From: a virus
Strand: one strand, 5' to 3'
IMG/VR virus record: IMGVR_UViG_3300031753_000298
Span: 1 to 60,988 of that record
DNA: 60,988 bases
Both the position numbers and the translations under genes were made by a program. Under the pieces are notes generated by a model. It did not search any database and was not told where the DNA came from. It was given only the letters and a program-made list of their open reading frames with translations. Shown one piece after another: positions 3,084-10,425 of this stretch. How positions within the stretch are numbered: the first letter of the stretch is position 1; each line of letters starts with the position of its first letter.

Positions 3084-3205
3084 GCTGGCCAGAAGCAATT
3101 GTGAAGAGCATCGACACGCTCTGTTTAACCGTTATCTTTATCGGAGGCGGCATACTCGCCTGGTGCGTCTTCGTGTTTCTCGTCTCAGGCGGCCCGGAGG
3201 ACTGA
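3080..3205 (+). CDS. Small membrane protein, 41 aa
   Basis: GTG start overlaps the upstream stop (GTGA). After about 15 polar residues there is one clear membrane span (LTVIFIGGGILAWCVFVFLV) and a short GGPED tail. Part of a run of very small envelope-type genes at the head of the rightward operon. Function unknown. Confidence 0.6.
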   Translation: MSWPEAIVKSIDTLCLTVIFIGGGILAWCVFVFLVSGGPED

Positions 3206-3364
3206 ATGGAACTCTACCTCATGTCACTCTCCGAAAAACTCATCTTCTGGGGCTGGATCTCGTCCTCGCACGGTCGCTCCCTGGATTGGTATTACTGGCA
3301 GCAAGCCGCACACGAATCACGCAAGCCCGCGAGCCGTAGCTCTGCACAAGAGGAGAAGAAATGA
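3206..3364 (+). CDS. Small hypothetical protein, 52 aa
   Basis: Starts immediately after the previous stop and ends in an ATGA overlap with the next gene. N-terminal half hydrophobic and Trp-rich (EKLIFWGWISS), C-terminal half polar and basic, ending SSAQEEKK. Possibly peripheral membrane. Not recognised. Confidence 0.55.
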   Translation: MELYLMSLSEKLIFWGWISSSHGRSLDWYYWQQAAHESRKPASRSSAQEEKK

Positions 3365-3546
3365 AGATTTGGATAAATCATCGGTTTACTGATCAACCTC
3401 TAAAGCAGATATACAGTCGGGAGTTTCCTGCTCCTCCAGATTCCTTACTCCGAGCCGAGGAGTTGCTTCCTGGATCGATGTTGGACGACGTGCATGTCAC
3501 TGCGGAAGGGGTGCATTTCTATTTCAAGGAAAGAGAATCCGAATGA
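3361..3546 (+). CDS. Small hypothetical protein, 61 aa
   Basis: GAGGAGAAGAA directly before the ATG gives a good ribosome binding site. The sequence is soluble and ends in a charged tail; its stop overlaps the next ATG. Not recognised. Confidence 0.6.
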   Translation: MKIWINHRFTDQPLKQIYSREFPAPPDSLLRAEELLPGSMLDDVHVTAEGVHFYFKERESE

Positions 3547-3692
3547 AAGTCCGAGTGTTCCTGAGCGCTACTGAAGAAGTCGTAATTGACGGGGCCAACT
3601 CTCTCGCCGAAGCAGAAGAGGCCGCTCTACGTGAAGCCCGCAAGAGAGGTGTCGCGGTCTTTGTAGAGGGTTCCGAGATTGAGGAAGAATGA
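3543..3692 (+). CDS. Small acidic hypothetical protein, 49 aa
   Basis: ATGA overlap on both sides. A short beta/alpha/beta pattern (KVRVFLSA, then an acidic helix LAEAEEAALREARKRG, then VAVFVEG). Acidic C-terminus. No family recognised. Confidence 0.6.
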   Translation: MKVRVFLSATEEVVIDGANSLAEAEEAALREARKRGVAVFVEGSEIEEE

Positions 3693-3832
3693 TGAAAACG
3701 ATTCTGGAACGTATCGGTCTCGTAATTGTGCCCGCGGTCTTCTTGATCGCGGCCATCTATCTATTTCGCATGCACGCCCCGGTCGCCGGCGGATTTTGTA
3801 TTCTTGCTGCATTCCTTACGGGCAAAAATTGA
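3692..3832 (+). CDS. Small membrane protein, 46 aa, two hydrophobic segments
   Basis: Overlaps the previous gene by one base. Two hydrophobic stretches (IGLVIVPAVFLIAAIYLF and GGFCILAAFLTG) separated by RMHAP would form a hairpin. The topology is compatible with a small holin or pinholin, but nothing proves it; another holin candidate lies at 34496-34756. Confidence 0.55.
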   Translation: MKTILERIGLVIVPAVFLIAAIYLFRMHAPVAGGFCILAAFLTGKN

Positions 3833-3836
3833 GACC

Positions 3837-4289
3837 ATGAAAACATTCTCTCTACTCTTCATCCTCCTGTGCAGCCTGCCGGCTCTCGCGCAGACTGAGC
3901 CAACTCCGCCCGCGTTTATTTATGTGTGTCCTCCGCCATCAAAGAAGCCTTGCGTCACTTACTCCGTCTCTGTGCAGAGCACTCCAATCATGAATGGAGA
4001 GCCTCTGCTTGGCCAAACAAATCGGAACAACAGAACAATAAAACTTTACCGTCACCCCGACAACTTCATCTTCGCCGCGACTCTCCTGCATGAGTGCATG
4101 CACGCCGTGCTCTATGAGGGCCACATGATTCATCAGGATGGATGGGATAGCGAGCGGATGTACGCGCACGACTTCATCTACAGGATCGAGCCTGGTCTGA
4201 CCCGATTGATTCAGGATAATCCCGCGCTCATCTCGTTTATAAATGAGGCCCGGAACAAGAGTGGGGCGAGGGCGGACGACCGTGAGTAG
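3837..4289 (+). CDS. Exported putative zinc metallopeptidase (HExxH)
   Basis: 150 residues from the ATG at 3837, which begins a signal peptide (MKTFSLLFILLCSLPALAQ; cleavage expected after ALA). The mature part contains LLHECMHAVLYEGH, an H-E-x-x-H zinc site, in the second half, with several further His (HMIH, HDF) that could serve as the third ligand. A role in envelope remodelling is plausible but not shown. An in-frame upstream start at 3804 lies inside the preceding gene and is less likely. Its 3' end overlaps the next gene. Confidence 0.6.
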   Translation: MKTFSLLFILLCSLPALAQTEPTPPAFIYVCPPPSKKPCVTYSVSVQSTPIMNGEPLLGQTNRNNRTIKLYRHPDNFIFAATLLHECMHAVLYEGHMIHQDGWDSERMYAHDFIYRIEPGLTRLIQDNPALISFINEARNKSGARADDRE

Positions 4290-4791
4290 CAATCCAAAAT
4301 TACGCATTGGTCCTTTGACTATAAGGCAGGCAAATGCACTCATTACAGCTAAACATCGTCATCACAAGTCTGTCACAGGACATCGTTTTAGTCTTGGTTG
4401 TTTTGTTGCTGAGACTCTTGTAGGTGCTGCAGTAACTGGCCGCCCGGTAGCACGAAACGTAGATCCGTATCAAGTTGCAGAAGTGACCCGTTTAGTATCA
4501 GACGGCACTCCTCATGTTTGCTCTATGCTCTATGCAGCTAGTGCTAGGGCAGCGCAAGCGATGGGTTTTCACTGGATACAAACGTACATTTTAGAAAGTG
4601 AAACAGGAAAGTCTTTGGAGGCTGCAGGTTGGTTACCGATTTACTCGACAGGATGGAACTGTGGTTGCAAACAAGGGCAGAAATGCGCAGGCTGTCTAAC
4701 ATCCGGAGGCGATTGGAATCGAAAAACCAGAAAAGACCGTCGCACGGATCAGCCAATGTGCCAGAAACAAAGATGGGGCAAAAGATTGTAA
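4282..4791 (+). CDS. XF1762-like GNAT-fold protein (Mom-related acyltransferase candidate)
   Basis: About 169 residues from GTG 4282 (an ATG at 4243 is also in frame). The features match the phage XF1762-type family: an N-terminal LTIRQANALITAKHRHHK segment, a GAAVTGRPVAR strand, EVTRLVSDG and CSMLYAASARAAQAMGF, and a C-terminal SLEAAGW. These correspond to the acetyl-CoA binding region of GNAT folds. Related phage proteins have been compared with Mom, which modifies DNA adenine; the substrate here is unknown. The C-terminus has a Cys-rich CGCKQGQKCAGC cluster, possibly a metal site. The gene looks more AT-rich than its neighbours and has no CTGTGCAG copy, which suggests later acquisition. 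Confidence 0.7.
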   Translation: MSSNPKLRIGPLTIRQANALITAKHRHHKSVTGHRFSLGCFVAETLVGAAVTGRPVARNVDPYQVAEVTRLVSDGTPHVCSMLYAASARAAQAMGFHWIQTYILESETGKSLEAAGWLPIYSTGWNCGCKQGQKCAGCLTSGGDWNRKTRKDRRTDQPMCQKQRWGKRL

Positions 4792-4816
4792 TTGCAGGTG
4801 ATGTTATTCTCTCCTC

Positions 4817-5515
4817 ATGAAGACTCCTTCCCGTTCGCCCCAGGAAGCCATCCTACAGAACCCGCCCAAGCGAGATCGACCTAAACCGGTCATCTCGAAC
4901 CGCGATCCGGAGACGGGCCGAATCGTGCGCGCGGACGGCACGGTGCGGCGCCCGGTCCCAAAGGATCCCAACGTAGGGGCGTATCCGTTAAGTAAAGCCG
5001 TCTTCAACCAAGAGATCTCGAATCTCGAAAAACTCTTCCCTCTCGACGATCCTGCGGTCGCCCGGCACGTCGCCAAGATAGTGTTCGCGCAGTACCACAA
5101 CTACGAGAAGGCCGCCGCTATGATCCTGCCCAAAGGCTCGGCGCCCTCTCTCGTCGCGACCGCCGCTCACGAATTCCGCACGCACCCGAACGTTCTCGCC
5201 CAGCTCAGCGAGATGGACAAAGAGAACGGCCTGGACGACCGCGCGCGCAAGCATCTCATCGGCCTACTCTGGTCGAACGTGCGCGATCGGGATCCGCGCA
5301 AAGCCGTCGCCGCGCTCCGCATGCTCGCCGAGGCGACCGGGATCATCGGGAACAATCAGCGAGGGGCTGCGGCGCCCGCCGATCTCCCCCTACAGGATCT
5401 CGGGAAGGGTCTCGCGCAGATGGGGTTCGACAAGAAGACGCTCAAGCAGATTCAGGAAACTCCGGCGCAATCTTTCGATGCTACAATGGAGCTGGATGAC
5501 GAGGAGGATGAATGA
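4817..5515 (+). CDS. Putative terminase small subunit
   Basis: 232 residues, located upstream of the large terminase as is usual for small subunits. The N-terminal 55 residues are basic and proline-rich; the middle is helical (ARHVAKIVFAQYHNYEKAAAMIL); a helical repeat-like region follows (ARKHLIGLLWSNVRDRDPRKAVAALRMLAEATGI); the tail is very acidic (ELDDEEDE). Small subunits recognise packaging sites on DNA and load the large subunit. The family match is weak, so the call rests mainly on position, size and domain character. The stop overlaps the next start. Confidence 0.45.
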   Translation: MKTPSRSPQEAILQNPPKRDRPKPVISNRDPETGRIVRADGTVRRPVPKDPNVGAYPLSKAVFNQEISNLEKLFPLDDPAVARHVAKIVFAQYHNYEKAAAMILPKGSAPSLVATAAHEFRTHPNVLAQLSEMDKENGLDDRARKHLIGLLWSNVRDRDPRKAVAALRMLAEATGIIGNNQRGAAAPADLPLQDLGKGLAQMGFDKKTLKQIQETPAQSFDATMELDDEEDE

Positions 5516-5676
5516 ACACAGTGTTAGGTTACGTCCTTATCTGGATCAGCGGTCTCGCTTGCGGCTTTGGGTTCCGCGGTGTCATTGATCGTCTGATTCA
5601 CAGCGCTGAAGCCAAAGTTCAAGCTGAAAAAGCTGCGTTGATTCAGGCTGCACAGCAAGTGGAGAAGAAACTCTAA
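5512..5676 (+). CDS. Small membrane-anchored coiled-coil protein, 54 aa
   Basis: ATGA overlap with the upstream gene and a one-base overlap with the downstream gene. One membrane span (VLGYVLIWISGLACGFGF) followed by an amphipathic helix (HSAEAKVQAEKAALIQAAQQ). Function unknown. Confidence 0.6.
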   Translation: MNTVLGYVLIWISGLACGFGFRGVIDRLIHSAEAKVQAEKAALIQAAQQVEKKL

Positions 5677-6038
5677 TGGGAGGCTTCGCAGGTATCCTCG
5701 GCGGCGTCGGCAAGGCTCTCGCGAGTCCGATGGCGCAGAAGCTCGGCCAGGCCGCCGGCAAGGTAGGCACCCAACTCTCTCCGGGACTTCAGCCTGCACA
5801 GTCGAACGACATGGCGATGCAGGGACCGCAGAATACGATGGGTCCGACTCAATCTTCCTCTCCTGTGCAGGGCTTAGGCCAAGGTCTCGCGAATATCCGG
5901 CAGGCTCTCGCGCTACGCCAATCTCGTCTGAACCCGACCTCGATCGGAGCGCCCCAGAATTTAGGGATCGGGAGCGGTAACGGAATCCCTAACCCGTCTC
6001 AGGGTTACGGCCCGGAGTCAGTAAGAGTAGGACCGTGA
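5676..6038 (+). CDS. Hypothetical Gly/Gln-rich protein, probable virion component
   Basis: 120 residues of low complexity, rich in Gly, Gln, Pro and Ser, with a short N-terminal amphipathic segment (GILGGVGKALASPMAQKLGQ). The make-up resembles the other disordered late proteins of this phage (7022, 27713). Not recognised. Confidence 0.6.
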   Translation: MGGFAGILGGVGKALASPMAQKLGQAAGKVGTQLSPGLQPAQSNDMAMQGPQNTMGPTQSSSPVQGLGQGLANIRQALALRQSRLNPTSIGAPQNLGIGSGNGIPNPSQGYGPESVRVGP

Positions 6039-6274
6039 TGCCCGGAATTTCGCAGGGCGGAGGATCGAGCACGGATCAATTCCCCAAGCCTCTTCGCCGA
6101 ACCAAAACTGACGAGTTCGAAAACTGGCAAAACAGCTCACTGGGTTCTTACCCTCACTCCGGTCAGGGCGGACTGAGCGGAATCACGCCGGCCGTTCTGC
6201 AAGCCAAGCTCCGCGCTCAGCAAGCATCATCTCCTGTGCAGAAGACCGGCTTGAACGGAATTCGTGTACAATAA
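6038..6274 (+). CDS. Small disordered hypothetical protein, 78 aa
   Basis: TGATG overlap with the upstream stop; a GTG at 6035 is also possible. Ser/Gly/Gln-rich. Contains one CTGTGCAG copy (6234-6241) read as SPVQK. Not recognised. Confidence 0.55.
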   Translation: MPGISQGGGSSTDQFPKPLRRTKTDEFENWQNSSLGSYPHSGQGGLSGITPAVLQAKLRAQQASSPVQKTGLNGIRVQ

Positions 6275-6291
6275 TTCTTGCGAGGTAAAGT

Positions 6292-6495
6292 ATGGCGTTC
6301 AGTCCAGATGCAAGTCCGGCGTTCCAAGCGTATCTGAAGGGTCGCGCGAAGTTCGCGGACGGTGATCAGTTCGAATACGATCTGTTCTTTATCAAGTATT
6401 GTTGCCAGCAAGCGGATTTGGCCGCGGCCGTGACTGCCGCAACCGCTGTGACTAGCGCTCAGACCTCGACGACGAGCAAAAAGCATCAGTTTTAG
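6292..6495 (+). CDS. Paralog A of a tandem three-gene family, 67 aa
   Basis: Begins M-A-F-S-P-D and carries QAYLKGRAKFADGDQFEYDLFF, which aligns with the genes at 6522 and 6777 (QAYVFARNLI... and QAYLFARGKI...). All three share the start M-[AS]-F-[ST]-P-D, the QAY box and an Ala-rich middle. A purine-rich GAGGTAAAG site precedes the ATG. Likely a small virion or assembly protein; function unknown. Confidence 0.7.
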   Translation: MAFSPDASPAFQAYLKGRAKFADGDQFEYDLFFIKYCCQQADLAAAVTAATAVTSAQTSTTSKKHQF

Positions 6496-6521
6496 TGGTA
6501 GAATGAAATAGGAGATTCGTT

Positions 6522-7318: not shown

Positions 7319-7356
7319 TTCGCTGTAAATACGTGGTATAATTGCCTTTCCACGTA
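7314..7356 (+). promoter_or_regulatory. Private promoter and dyad of the HNH gene
   Basis: TTTAAT (7314-7319), 17-base spacer, TATAAT (7337-7342). TACGTGG (7330-7336) and CCACGTA (7350-7356) form a perfect 7-bp inverted repeat that flanks the -10 box and ends on the A of the start codon. It could act as an operator or as an RNA hairpin hiding the start. No ribosome binding site is visible. Confidence 0.55.
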
Positions 7357-7907
7357 TGAAACAAACTCATTGCCTCCGTGGTCACTTACGTTCTCCAGAT
7401 AATCTTACTTCTGTAGGCCAATGCAAAATTTGCCATACAATACAGGGAAGACAACGGCATTTTGCGAAACGTGATCAGATCCTTGCAGCCGCACGTAAGC
7501 GATATTGGGACAATCCTCAAAAGCACCGGGAAGCCTCGCGACAATGGGCTAAGGATAATCCGAACAAAGCGACAGCCATTCATCGGACATGGCGCTGGTC
7601 GAACCGTTCACTGTGTCTTTTGTCAGCGACTCGTAGACGCGCTCGAAATACAAATACTCCTTTCAATTTAACTCTGGAGGACATTTTTATTCCAGATGTG
7701 TGCCCGATTCTTGGAATTCCTCTTTTCTTTACTCCTCGGAAAGTAACGAATAACACGCCATCTTTGGATAAGATTATTCCGAACCTTGGCTACGTCAAAG
7801 GCAACGTTGCCGTAATCAGCATGAAAGCGAATGGTCTCAAAAACAACGCGAGTCTGAAAGAGTTCAAATCCTTAATTCAATATTTGGAGACTCACGGTGT
7901 TCAGTAA
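7356..7907 (+). CDS. Homing-type endonuclease (HNH / endonuclease VII-like), free-standing
   Basis: 183 residues. An N-terminal Zn-like C-x2-GH...C-x2-C, basic repeats (ARKRYWDNPQKHREASRQWAKDNPNK), then the catalytic region: DVCPILGIPLFF, SLDKIIPNLGYVKGNV, IS-x-x-AN-x-LKNNAS. This pattern is typical of phage-encoded homing nucleases that cut unoccupied alleles next to their own gene. It overlaps the first codons of the large terminase, so it may protect or spread that locus. It is more AT-rich than its neighbours, has its own promoter, and has a paralog at 44285-44821. Confidence 0.8.
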   Translation: MKQTHCLRGHLRSPDNLTSVGQCKICHTIQGRQRHFAKRDQILAAARKRYWDNPQKHREASRQWAKDNPNKATAIHRTWRWSNRSLCLLSATRRRARNTNTPFNLTLEDIFIPDVCPILGIPLFFTPRKVTNNTPSLDKIIPNLGYVKGNVAVISMKANGLKNNASLKEFKSLIQYLETHGVQ

Positions 7908-10425
7908 TGCTCCAATCAATACACATGAACTCAAGGCCAAAACCGGCCAACTCCTGCCTTCGCAGCGTGAGTATGTGTTCTCGCCCGAGCGTTTCAGCAT
8001 GCTTGCGGGAGGGTTCGCTTCCGGCAAGACCCACGCAATGATTTTGAAGGGTCTCGTGTTGTCTGCTGTGATCCCTGGCAACGTCGGGATGGTCCTGCGT
8101 TACCACTACACAGATTTGGAAGAGTCTACGATGCGGACTTTCTTCGATATCTGCCCGCCGTCGTGGATCAAAGCGTTCAATAAGAAAGCACGCACGGTAC
8201 TACTGCGTAACGGGAGCCTGATTTTTTTTCGGCACTTACATGATGCCAAAGCTCTGACCAAAACTAGGCGTTTGGGCGCGAACCTCGGCTGGTTTGCGAT
8301 CGACCAAGCGGAAGAGATTCAGCTTGAACACTGGCAAGCGATGATGTCACGACTCAGGCTGCCGCGCGCGCCCAAGAAGTTTGGATTCGGAACGATGAAT
8401 CCCGCAGGTCACGACTGGCTGTGGGAGACCTTCTTTTCTCAATTCAAACCGTGGCCGCGCGACAAAGAGAAGAAGGCTTTGCCTATCGATGGAAAGTACT
8501 ACCAGGCGTTCCGCGGGCCGGACACGCTCGGGATCGCGGTGAACTCAGAAGAAAACAGAGAGAGTGCAGGCGGGTTCATCGAAGATTCATATTTCGACAG
8601 TAACCTGAAACAGTGGGGACGTGAGTGGGTCGAGCGTTACGTGTACTGCTCGTTTGACGATTTTACTGGCAAAATTTACAGGGAGTTTGAGGGAGGGTTG
8701 CGTAATGAAGACTATCGCTCCGTACATATTGTTGATCCTTTCCCGATTCCTAAACATTGGCCCCTCACGGTGGGAATTGACGTTGGCGGCGATAGTCCGT
8801 GGGCTGTTGTACCTGAATACACTGACGATGCCGGTAATCAAATTATCGTTCGAGGGTTTTCCAAACGAACCGGACGAACCGGAGAAGTAGCGCAGTGGAT
8901 CAAGAACAACCTTCCCTGGAACGAATCGCGCACCCAGTACGTGATGGACTGGGAGAACAAAGTCGCAATGGTCGAGCTGGGGCAAGATCACGGGATCCAC
9001 GCCCAGATCGCGCGCAAAGAGGTGATCCCCGGTATCCTTCAGACCAACGCATATTTTCATGTGCAGAAACATCGTGCGCTCCCTGAGTGGTATCAAGACA
9101 CGCAACCGAACGCTCGTTATCAAAAGTTCCGCAACGCCGGCTCGCCGCGCACGTTCGTGTTCAATACGTTCACGGAGTTTATTCAGGAGCACGACGCGTA
9201 TAAATGGGATCCCAACAAAGCAGACAAGCCTCTGAAGACTGCGACCGCTCGCTACGACACGTGTTTCGCGCAGGGAACAAATATTTTGATGGGAGACGGT
9301 ACGCAAAAACGAATAGAACGTATCTGTGCTGGGGATTTTGTCATGACACGCTTTGGCTCAAAACGTGTCCTTAGTACTGGGATGACTAATTCTTATGCTG
9401 AAGTGTTTCGGGCCGAGTTTTCTAATGGCACAGAAATCGTTGCTACTGCTGAGCATCCCTTTTGGTCAGTTAATGCCGGTCTTTTGACATTGAATACTCT
9501 TCGATATTCTGATATACTTCAAGAATGGAACCCAGAACAGTTATCTACGACGGCATTGAGTGGTACATCAACAAAAGGAATCCGTACTATCGAGCCTTCG
9601 TCAACGGCAAGACGATTAAACTCCATGTGTATATCTGGACGAAACACAATGGCGCAGTTCCTGCAGGATATGTGGTTCATCACAAAGATGAGAACAAACG
9701 AAATTGGGAATTGGGTAACTTGGAATGTATCCCGTCTGGGATCCATGCAAAGGAACGTCATCCCTCTAATCTCGATCTCGCACGGAGCGCCGCCGCTAGC
9801 TGGCACAAATCTGTGGTTGGTCGGAGATGGCATTCTTTGCACGGGAAGCGGGTATGGAAACAAAGAGTGCTCAAACATCGGGTTTGTAGACACTGCAAAA
9901 AACAGTTTTCCACCAAACACAACCGTAAAGAATTCTGTTCCAACAACTGCAAATCAGCATGGCGGCGAGTCGCTGGTTTGGACAACATTAAAAGAAGGTG
10001 CGTCGTCTGCAGCAAGTCGATTGTGGTCAACCGTTACTCAAAAATCCGCTCGTGCAAAGGTTCCTGTTCGGCTCGTCTCACTGTCGAAGGCCGTTCCAAG
10101 ACCCGTTTATAATCTCGCTGTTGAAGATGTTCATGAATATTTCGCAAACGGACTTCTTGTTCGTAATTGCGACGCGCACCGTTATGTCTGCATGACACGG
10201 CCGATCCCCGGTAAATGGGAGGAGCCTGAACGCGATTGGGACTCCATCGCGAAGAAGGATCCGTTGAGCTACCGCGCAATGCGCGATATGGACAAACGGA
10301 TCGCCGAGCGAGAGTGGCGGAGGAAGGGCGGGGCCGCGTTGAGGGAAGCGGACATGGAAGATGCGCCGGATGTGGATCTGCGAGGCGATGAAAAGTTTGA
10401 CTGGGCGGGACAAGGGGAAGTCTAA
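7897..10425 (+). CDS. Terminase large subunit, interrupted by an intein
   Basis: 842 codons; 540 residues after removal of the 302-residue intein. ATPase motifs: Walker A GGFASGKT (about residue 38), Walker B LGWFAIDQAEE, and coupling motif GTMNPAGH. The nuclease begins at VGIDVGGDSPW (first Asp), continues with YVMDWE, and the last metal-binding motif YDT/CDAHRY is split by the intein exactly before Cys +1. The protein packages DNA into the prohead through the portal. GTG start at 7897 with TTGGAG upstream; the first codons overlap the HNH gene. No CTGTGCAG copy lies in this 2.5-kb gene. Confidence 0.93.
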   Translation: MFSNAPINTHELKAKTGQLLPSQREYVFSPERFSMLAGGFASGKTHAMILKGLVLSAVIPGNVGMVLRYHYTDLEESTMRTFFDICPPSWIKAFNKKARTVLLRNGSLIFFRHLHDAKALTKTRRLGANLGWFAIDQAEEIQLEHWQAMMSRLRLPRAPKKFGFGTMNPAGHDWLWETFFSQFKPWPRDKEKKALPIDGKYYQAFRGPDTLGIAVNSEENRESAGGFIEDSYFDSNLKQWGREWVERYVYCSFDDFTGKIYREFEGGLRNEDYRSVHIVDPFPIPKHWPLTVGIDVGGDSPWAVVPEYTDDAGNQIIVRGFSKRTGRTGEVAQWIKNNLPWNESRTQYVMDWENKVAMVELGQDHGIHAQIARKEVIPGILQTNAYFHVQKHRALPEWYQDTQPNARYQKFRNAGSPRTFVFNTFTEFIQEHDAYKWDPNKADKPLKTATARYDTCFAQGTNILMGDGTQKRIERICAGDFVMTRFGSKRVLSTGMTNSYAEVFRAEFSNGTEIVATAEHPFWSVNAGLLTLNTLRYSDILQEWNPEQLSTTALSGTSTKGIRTIEPSSTARRLNSMCISGRNTMAQFLQDMWFITKMRTNEIGNWVTWNVSRLGSMQRNVIPLISISHGAPPLAGTNLWLVGDGILCTGSGYGNKECSNIGFVDTAKNSFPPNTTVKNSVPTTANQHGGESLVWTTLKEGASSAASRLWSTVTQKSARAKVPVRLVSLSKAVPRPVYNLAVEDVHEYFANGLLVRNCDAHRYVCMTRPIPGKWEEPERDWDSIAKKDPLSYRAMRDMDKRIAEREWRRKGGAALREADMEDAPDVDLRGDEKFDWAGQGEV
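9262..10167 (+). other. Intein in the terminase nuclease motif
   Basis: 302 residues, from Cys1 (CFAQGTNILMGDG, block A) through block B (GTEIVATAEHPFW, with the T-x2-H) to block F/G (VYNLAVEDVHEYFANGLL, then VRN followed by Cys +1). It sits in the D-x2-DAxRY catalytic motif of the terminase, a typical conserved-site insertion. The penultimate residue is Arg rather than the usual His. Between blocks B and F, about 180 residues in this frame show no endonuclease motif. Instead an HNH gene occupies the same DNA in another frame (9525-10112). Confidence 0.9.
9525..10112 (+). CDS. HNH homing endonuclease nested out of frame inside the intein
   Basis: 195 residues in a frame different from the terminase/intein. 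The N-terminal part matches HNH_3-type homing nucleases: YRAFVNGKTIKLHVYIW, NGAVPAGYVVHHKDENKRN, LGNLECIPSGIHAKERH. The C-terminal half holds two zinc-finger-like modules: CRHCKKQFS...FCSNNC and CVVCSK...CKGSC. Its stop TAA falls within the DNA encoding intein block F (VYNL). The intein frame has no stop over the whole 588 bases, so both frames appear maintained. The ATG has only a weak purine-rich site upstream; translation could be by reinitiation or frameshift. Confidence 0.8.
   Translation: MEPRTVIYDGIEWYINKRNPYYRAFVNGKTIKLHVYIWTKHNGAVPAGYVVHHKDENKRNWELGNLECIPSGIHAKERHPSNLDLARSAAASWHKSVVGRRWHSLHGKRVWKQRVLKHRVCRHCKKQFSTKHNRKEFCSNNCKSAWRRVAGLDNIKRRCVVCSKSIVVNRYSKIRSCKGSCSARLTVEGRSKTRL

Follow-up and report, generated by a model that had tools for sequence, protein, structure and literature searches.

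Introduction

In the usual description of an intein, splicing and cutting belong to fused domains of one protein. Canonical large inteins such as PI-SceI follow this design, with an endonuclease encoded in frame between blocks B and F of the Hint domain and the whole homing as a unit. In the gp41-1-type split inteins, or 'fractured genes', the intein is divided and the endonuclease is encoded separately between the halves, and I-HmuI, from a group I intron of phage SPO1, is an HNH endonuclease housed in an RNA intron. A further system is the ShiLan domain, a complete HNH endonuclease lying out of frame in a phage methylase whose own frame stays open through the insertion; its disjunct distribution suggests homing, it is thought to stay in the methylase, and a leaderless mRNA has been proposed as its route of expression (PMC11855218).

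The locus described here lies in a window of 60,988 nucleotides, which is the whole stretch of viral DNA analysed (IMG/VR record IMGVR_UViG_3300031753_000298), and resembles each of these systems in part. Like PI-SceI, it has a Hint domain with an endonuclease between blocks B and F and would home as a unit, but the endonuclease lies in another frame and would be a separate protein. The Hint halves are closest in sequence and fold to those of the gp41-1 type, with the endonuclease encoded separately between them, yet the intein is continuous and not split, a single ORF reading straight through the HNH. With I-HmuI it shares the HNH core and a partial fold match, whereas it is situated in an intein rather than an RNA intron and adds C-terminal zinc modules. 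As in ShiLan, a complete out-of-frame HNH coincides with an open host frame; that system, however, has no splicing domain, whereas the window HNH sits between fixed codons of an intein that retains every splicing motif and interrupts an essential terminase. The ShiLan domain is the nearest precedent, and what would be new here is an endonuclease that forms the second, overprinted gene of a mobile intein. No endonuclease lying out of frame in an intein appeared in the literature searched; a 2025 preprint (bioRxiv 2025.01.02.630785), cited by PMC11855218, deals with actinobacteriophage inteins of 'non-canonical architecture' and could overlap.

An HNH gene nested in a terminase intein

The features of the locus, all on the + strand, are as follows:

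7897-10425, +, terminase large subunit, 842 residues, a single unbroken ORF
7897-9261, +, N-extein
9262-10167, +, intein, 302 residues, from Cys1 (9262) to Asn302 (10165-10167), followed by Cys+1 (10168)
9262-9531, +, N-terminal half of the Hint domain, residues 1-90 (AF2 pLDDT 96-98)
9490-9518, +, predicted sigma-70-type promoter for the HNH, TTGAAT - 17 nt - TATACT (consensus scan)
9525-10112, +, HNH endonuclease gene, 195 residues, ATG to TAA, in the -1 frame relative to the intein
9618-9746, +, HNH_3 nuclease core (Pfam span), HNH residues 32-74; H34, H52, H53, N65 and H74 invariant in 47 sequences
9885-9950, +, first zinc module of the HNH, C121/C124/C138/C142, invariant in family alignments
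9999-10067, +, second zinc module of the HNH, C159/C162/C177/C181, read from the translation and absent in many family members
10048-10167, +, C-terminal half of the Hint domain with blocks F and G, residues 263-302 (AF2 pLDDT 91-98 from about residue 271)
10168-10425, +, C-extein

The host gene is identified as a terminase by Pfam Terminase_3 (E=1.9e-9) and by the PHROG terminase large subunit (E=4e-28). All intein motifs are present, namely block A (CFAQGTNILM), block B (TAEH), block F (VYNLAVEDVHEYF) and block G (ANGLLVRN, then C), and the sequence has the Cys1 nucleophile, a TxxH block B and a terminal Asn followed by Cys; only the penultimate His is missing. That residue is Arg in the window (VRN/C, 10162-10167), His in most family members and Ser in TJE1 and others. 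The window intein matches the Intein_splicing and Hom_end_hint domains, and its C-terminal region exceeds the NCBIfam cut-off. A Hint fold is predicted with pLDDT 96-98 in both intein halves, the top Foldseek matches being the gp41-1, DnaB and RecA inteins, with gp41-1 first; the family profile likewise matches gp41-1 intein structures (E=1e-16). Between these confident halves, the centre read in the intein frame has pLDDT mostly below 50 and contains no nuclease.

The nuclease is found one base before the intein frame, in a frame that is open over 9513-10109, where the third frame has nine stops. The HNH gene starts with an ATG that overlaps the W89 codon of the intein and ends with a TAA that overlaps the Y283-N284 codons of block F. 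The product matches Pfam HNH_3 (E=1.1e-13), as do 14 of 14 family members scanned, and its fold is predicted with a mean pLDDT of 92.7; the alignments used for structure prediction excluded rows from annotated public records. The best structural match is I-HmuI, by Foldseek (E=7.9e-3, probability 0.99) and by profile search (E=1.5e-4).

A preliminary description of this DNA had proposed a complete HNH gene in an alternative frame of a terminase intein whose centre has no nuclease in the intein frame, and both statements are borne out by the intact terminase ORF, the HNH ORF within it and the structure prediction. It was also right about the splicing blocks, the two zinc modules and the end of the gene in block F, with the correction that the centre comes to about 173 residues and not 180; the penultimate intein residue reads Arg, not His, in the translation. 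Immediately 5' of the terminase and overlapping its start is a further gene (7356-7907) that matches phage endonuclease VII / HNH families (phrog_3322, E=1.3e-33), a second nuclease adjoining the window terminase.

Nested endonucleases in related phages

When phage records were searched by tblastn with the HNH and with the intein, the same nested arrangement came to light in Tetrasphaera phage TJE1 (HQ225832), Acinetobacter phage Highwayman (OZ038341), a human faecal phage and Rhodobacteraceae phage OP947163, the HNH lying one base before the intein frame in all four. TJE1, Highwayman and OP947163 are isolated phages that were sequenced separately; their public records annotate the region as terminase only and lack the nested HNH. 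A single-protein search of viral contigs with the window HNH gave no matches. Profile scans of viral contigs and bacterial genomes, using a closer six-row alignment given that a 14-row alignment had no sufficiently conserved stretch, yielded a first set in which 72 loci are nested and 50 HNH relatives are not, being free-standing or otherwise placed. In total, 119 distinct nested HNH sequences were gathered, gut phages and prophages among them, typically about one third identical to the window HNH; one frame relation holds throughout, and none of the 119 is in the intein frame. A second, independent scan, based on the intein frame, returned 80 inteins, all stop-free, with the HNH in the same -1 frame in 79, no HNH in one and an in-frame HNH in none, a ranking that may favour HNH-bearing inteins because the profile included the dual-coded centre.

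Most family inteins occupy one terminase site (..NH/C...N/CxDAxRY, slashes marking the intein boundaries), and two loci use another (GFS/.../DP). Locus L003 has both: at 3179-6505, one terminase ORF of 1109 residues contains two inteins at the two sites, each with its own out-of-frame HNH, the second having a duplicated core. In L018 (Vibrio phage 1.238.A, 221-3949) the terminase is split within the intein, the order being an ORF for the N-half, an HNH gene of the same family and an ORF with the intein C-half and the end of the terminase, which makes it the fractured counterpart of the nested form. L011 (about 340-2420) has a terminase with two short inteins, neither with an HNH, one of which breaks the Walker A motif (SRG/../SGKS), the other lying at the usual DALDYY-type site.

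Selection on two reading frames

Across the HNH, the intein frame has no stop in any nested copy. In the first set, the 72 nested loci have 0 stops against a mean of 7.4 in the 50 free-standing relatives, and in the enlarged set the 119 distinct nested sequences have 0 against a mean of 7.6 in 41. Synonymous shuffling accounts exactly for the shadow frame of the free-standing relatives (7.38 stops observed, 7.38 expected) and predicts 2.7 stops in the nested copies. A Met codon followed by A, which makes an intein-frame stop unavoidable, occurs at 0 of 207 Met codons in nested copies versus 37 of 113 in free-standing ones. When synonymous codons are shuffled in the window HNH by itself, the intein frame stays open in 3% of cases, so a single locus is only modest evidence and the strength comes from the family, for which a Poisson estimate that takes no account of shared ancestry puts the chance at about 10^-83. 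The open intein frame across the nested HNH is maintained by selection. Shadow stops of HNH genes average about 7 in the +1 and about 22 in the +2 shadow, a density that makes only one alternative frame practical to keep open and partly explains the fixed frame. The boundaries are similarly regular, with the HNH ATG over an intein Trp in 58 of 64 loci and over Cys in the other six, and the HNH stop often over Tyr-Asp or Tyr-Asn among these 64.

The position of substitutions reveals where each frame is under constraint. Among eight pairs of close relatives, the differences counted in the centre number 236, 192 and 378 at HNH positions 1, 2 and 3, the HNH third positions being intein second positions, and in the N-terminal splicing half they number 64, 69 and 165 at intein positions 1, 2 and 3; therefore selection switches frame at the HNH boundary. 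The catalytic and zinc positions of the HNH do not vary across 47 sequences. In the intein frame, the centre shows little protein-level conservation, and the structure predictions for the two frames agree with this picture. Four-fold sites of the HNH that are unable to create stops changed in 60 of 237 cases, versus 47 of 124 four-fold sites in the splicing half (stratified chi-square 6.4), and this slower change at HNH-synonymous sites hints weakly at additional constraint on the intein frame in the centre. Overall, the HNH frame holds nearly all of the constraint, and the intein frame is kept mainly stop-free with a mild added slow-down.

The proposals made from the window alone can be read in this light. 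A dual-coded, out-of-frame HNH in an intein that looks competent for splicing recurs in more than 100 sequences, and the check for codon-level selection in both frames among homologues shows substitutions gathering at HNH third positions in the centre and at intein third positions in the N-half. The suggested co-evolution of two proteins on one stretch stands insofar as both frames are maintained, and falls short in that the burden is lopsided.

Expression of the nested gene

No Shine-Dalgarno sequence precedes the window HNH ATG, nor is there an enrichment before the HNH start across the family, a Shine-Dalgarno-like 4-mer being present in 13 of 64 loci and not above synonymous recodings. The predicted promoter of the window has a -10 element that ends 6 nt before the HNH ATG. 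The consensus scan alone gives no more sites than are found in shuffles; when the intein is recoded synonymously, the score of the window promoter ranks in the top 0.6% (p=0.0056). The same null was applied to 68 loci without an early start motif, most of them starting after the LxxGDxL block and the window included. In this post hoc test, in which related sequences are non-independent and the controls are somewhat biased by AT-rich codons, sites with the -10 element at the exact position numbered 20 against 4.7 expected at scores of at least 8, and 13 against 1.7 at scores of at least 10, and the mean percentile was 0.82 (z 9.2), with control segments further upstream giving 0.63 (z 3.7) and 0.57 (z 2.1). 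The other subgroup of loci shows at most a weak promoter signal. The placement of the predicted promoter suggests that, in the subgroup containing the window, a leaderless mRNA may begin at the HNH ATG, and a separation of splicing from cutting would fit separate translation of the HNH and its own predicted promoter.

Mobility of the element in relatives

Three pairs of closely related loci have nearly identical elements in diverged terminases. The intein plus HNH differs by 0.5-0.8% between L042 and L043, against 11.5-12.7% in the exteins, by 1.3% against 12.6% in the N-extein for L098/L099 and by 1% against 8.2% in the N-extein for L088/L089; more distant pairs present the same contrast, L057/L060 being one example (25% against 55%). 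These comparisons show that, in relatives, the intein plus HNH transfers as one unit between diverged terminase genes.

A further case is Highwayman, whose terminase is 98-99% identical to those of several phages of its group, two of which were examined and are both intein-free; its intein had no DNA relative in the collection searched. Against Acba_21, a 99.4% identical sister with an empty site, the insert is exactly 981 nt, precise and in frame between A and Cys+1, with Cys+1 replacing a Leu of the empty allele. To its left, all eight differences in 1609 nt fall within 163 nt of the insert, and to its right all seven in 697 nt fall within 13 nt. Such clustering is the co-conversion footprint that recent homing is expected to leave. 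The pairing of Highwayman with BP10 as an empty-site comparison was dropped, their terminases being unrelated, and Acba_21 was used instead. For the window's own terminase, neither a joined-extein search nor a search of viral contigs with the N-extein returned an empty allele, and terminase and element have no close relative in the collections, so that the mobility footprints derive from relatives.

Proposed mechanism and alternative explanations

We consider it highly probable that the locus is a mobile intein with its homing endonuclease encoded by a gene of its own, which overprints the intein linker in another frame. The terminase would be translated straight through, after which the two Hint halves, given their intact motifs, would fold, excise the 302-residue intein and join the exteins, its centre being an unstructured shadow of the HNH gene. 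Translation of the HNH would begin independently at the ATG at 9525, and its template may be a leaderless mRNA with a promoter within intein codons. It would then cut intein-free terminase genes of co-infecting phages, and repair would copy the intein plus HNH, with some flank, into the cut allele, as the transfer footprints in relatives suggest.

Given that the window is a metagenomic virus contig in which both frames could be open by chance 3% of the time, the HNH might really belong to the intein frame and be displaced by two compensating indel errors in assembly. The same frame relation, with its signatures of selection, in TJE1, Highwayman, OP947163 and more than 100 contigs leaves this reading a virtually negligible probability; with over 100 independent sequences sharing the relation, it is for practical purposes excluded. 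It is also very unlikely that the HNH ORF has no function and is a product of decay or chance in an ordinary mini-intein with a long linker. Such an ORF would have an HNH-frame dN/dS near 1 among close relatives, and the data point the other way. Such a relic would agree with the scant protein-level conservation of the centre in the intein frame, but not with the invariant catalytic and zinc residues or the concentration of substitutions at HNH third positions; moreover, no broken copy was seen among the scanned loci, the apparent stops in six HNH frames lying 5' of their ATG and the HNHs being intact.

The constant -1 relation could instead reflect programmed -1 ribosomal frameshifting that yields a fusion of the intein N-half with the HNH. 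This is decidedly unlikely, as 60 of 64 loci have a stop in the HNH frame at most 10 codons upstream of the start, directly before it in five, which leaves no common slip site, and the start is an ATG at a fixed place in 61 of 64. HNH genes of the I-HmuI family are typical of phage group I introns, and the gene could lie in a group I or other self-splicing intron that is removed from within the intein as RNA; an intron, however, would not require the host frame to be free of stops, the HNH has the Hint halves immediately on either side, and Rfam gave no match, either for the window region with the threshold relaxed to E<=1 or for six relatives at gathering cut-offs, all of which renders an intron extremely unlikely. 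HNH proteins next to terL serve packaging in some phages, and annotated free-standing homologues of the window HNH adjoin terS, terL or portal genes. That the HNH serves terminase-driven DNA packaging, its location being an adaptation to packaging and not to homing, is nonetheless unlikely given its patchy presence (Highwayman carries the element and near-identical relatives do not), the co-conversion tract, the transfer as a unit between diverged terminases and the similarity to the homing enzyme I-HmuI.

If the overprinted endonuclease is accepted, its origin can be approached from a tree of 107 HNH sequences, on which nested and free-standing forms interleave. Parsimony gives nine changes of state, of which at least three are forced by well-supported branches, so that movement between the states probably happened more than once; many branches are long and the bootstrap is unsettled, which makes this conclusion tentative. 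The nearest sequence to the window HNH is a free-standing HNH with 46% identity. Among Acinetobacter phages (L015/L016), the nested HNH of Highwayman and a free-standing HNH beside terS in BP10 are sisters (support 96/83) in spite of unrelated terminases, which suggests recent switching of states. A bolder reading holds that three messages are superimposed, a splicing protein, an out-of-frame endonuclease and a promoter in splicing-block codons that drives a leaderless mRNA, and that free-standing endonuclease genes were captured repeatedly; we regard it as a genuine possibility, leaning slightly against it as a whole.

Implications

The double-coded element is real and probably of a mobile kind, and the public records that were checked carry no annotation of it. 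Genes of this type escape gene callers, as the terminase-only labels of TJE1, Highwayman and OP947163 attest. The more than 100 examples are a resource for the study of long overlapping genes. For tests of homing, there are cultured phages that carry the element (Highwayman) or lack it (Acba_21). The family keeps splicing and cutting at one place in a gene as two proteins in two frames, which can therefore be expressed and mutated separately while sharing the same DNA. The findings are relevant to the question of how endonucleases come to be part of inteins and to the expression of hidden ones such as ShiLan, and, if the repeated capture of free-standing genes is true, out-of-frame capture would be a route by which mini-inteins gain mobility.
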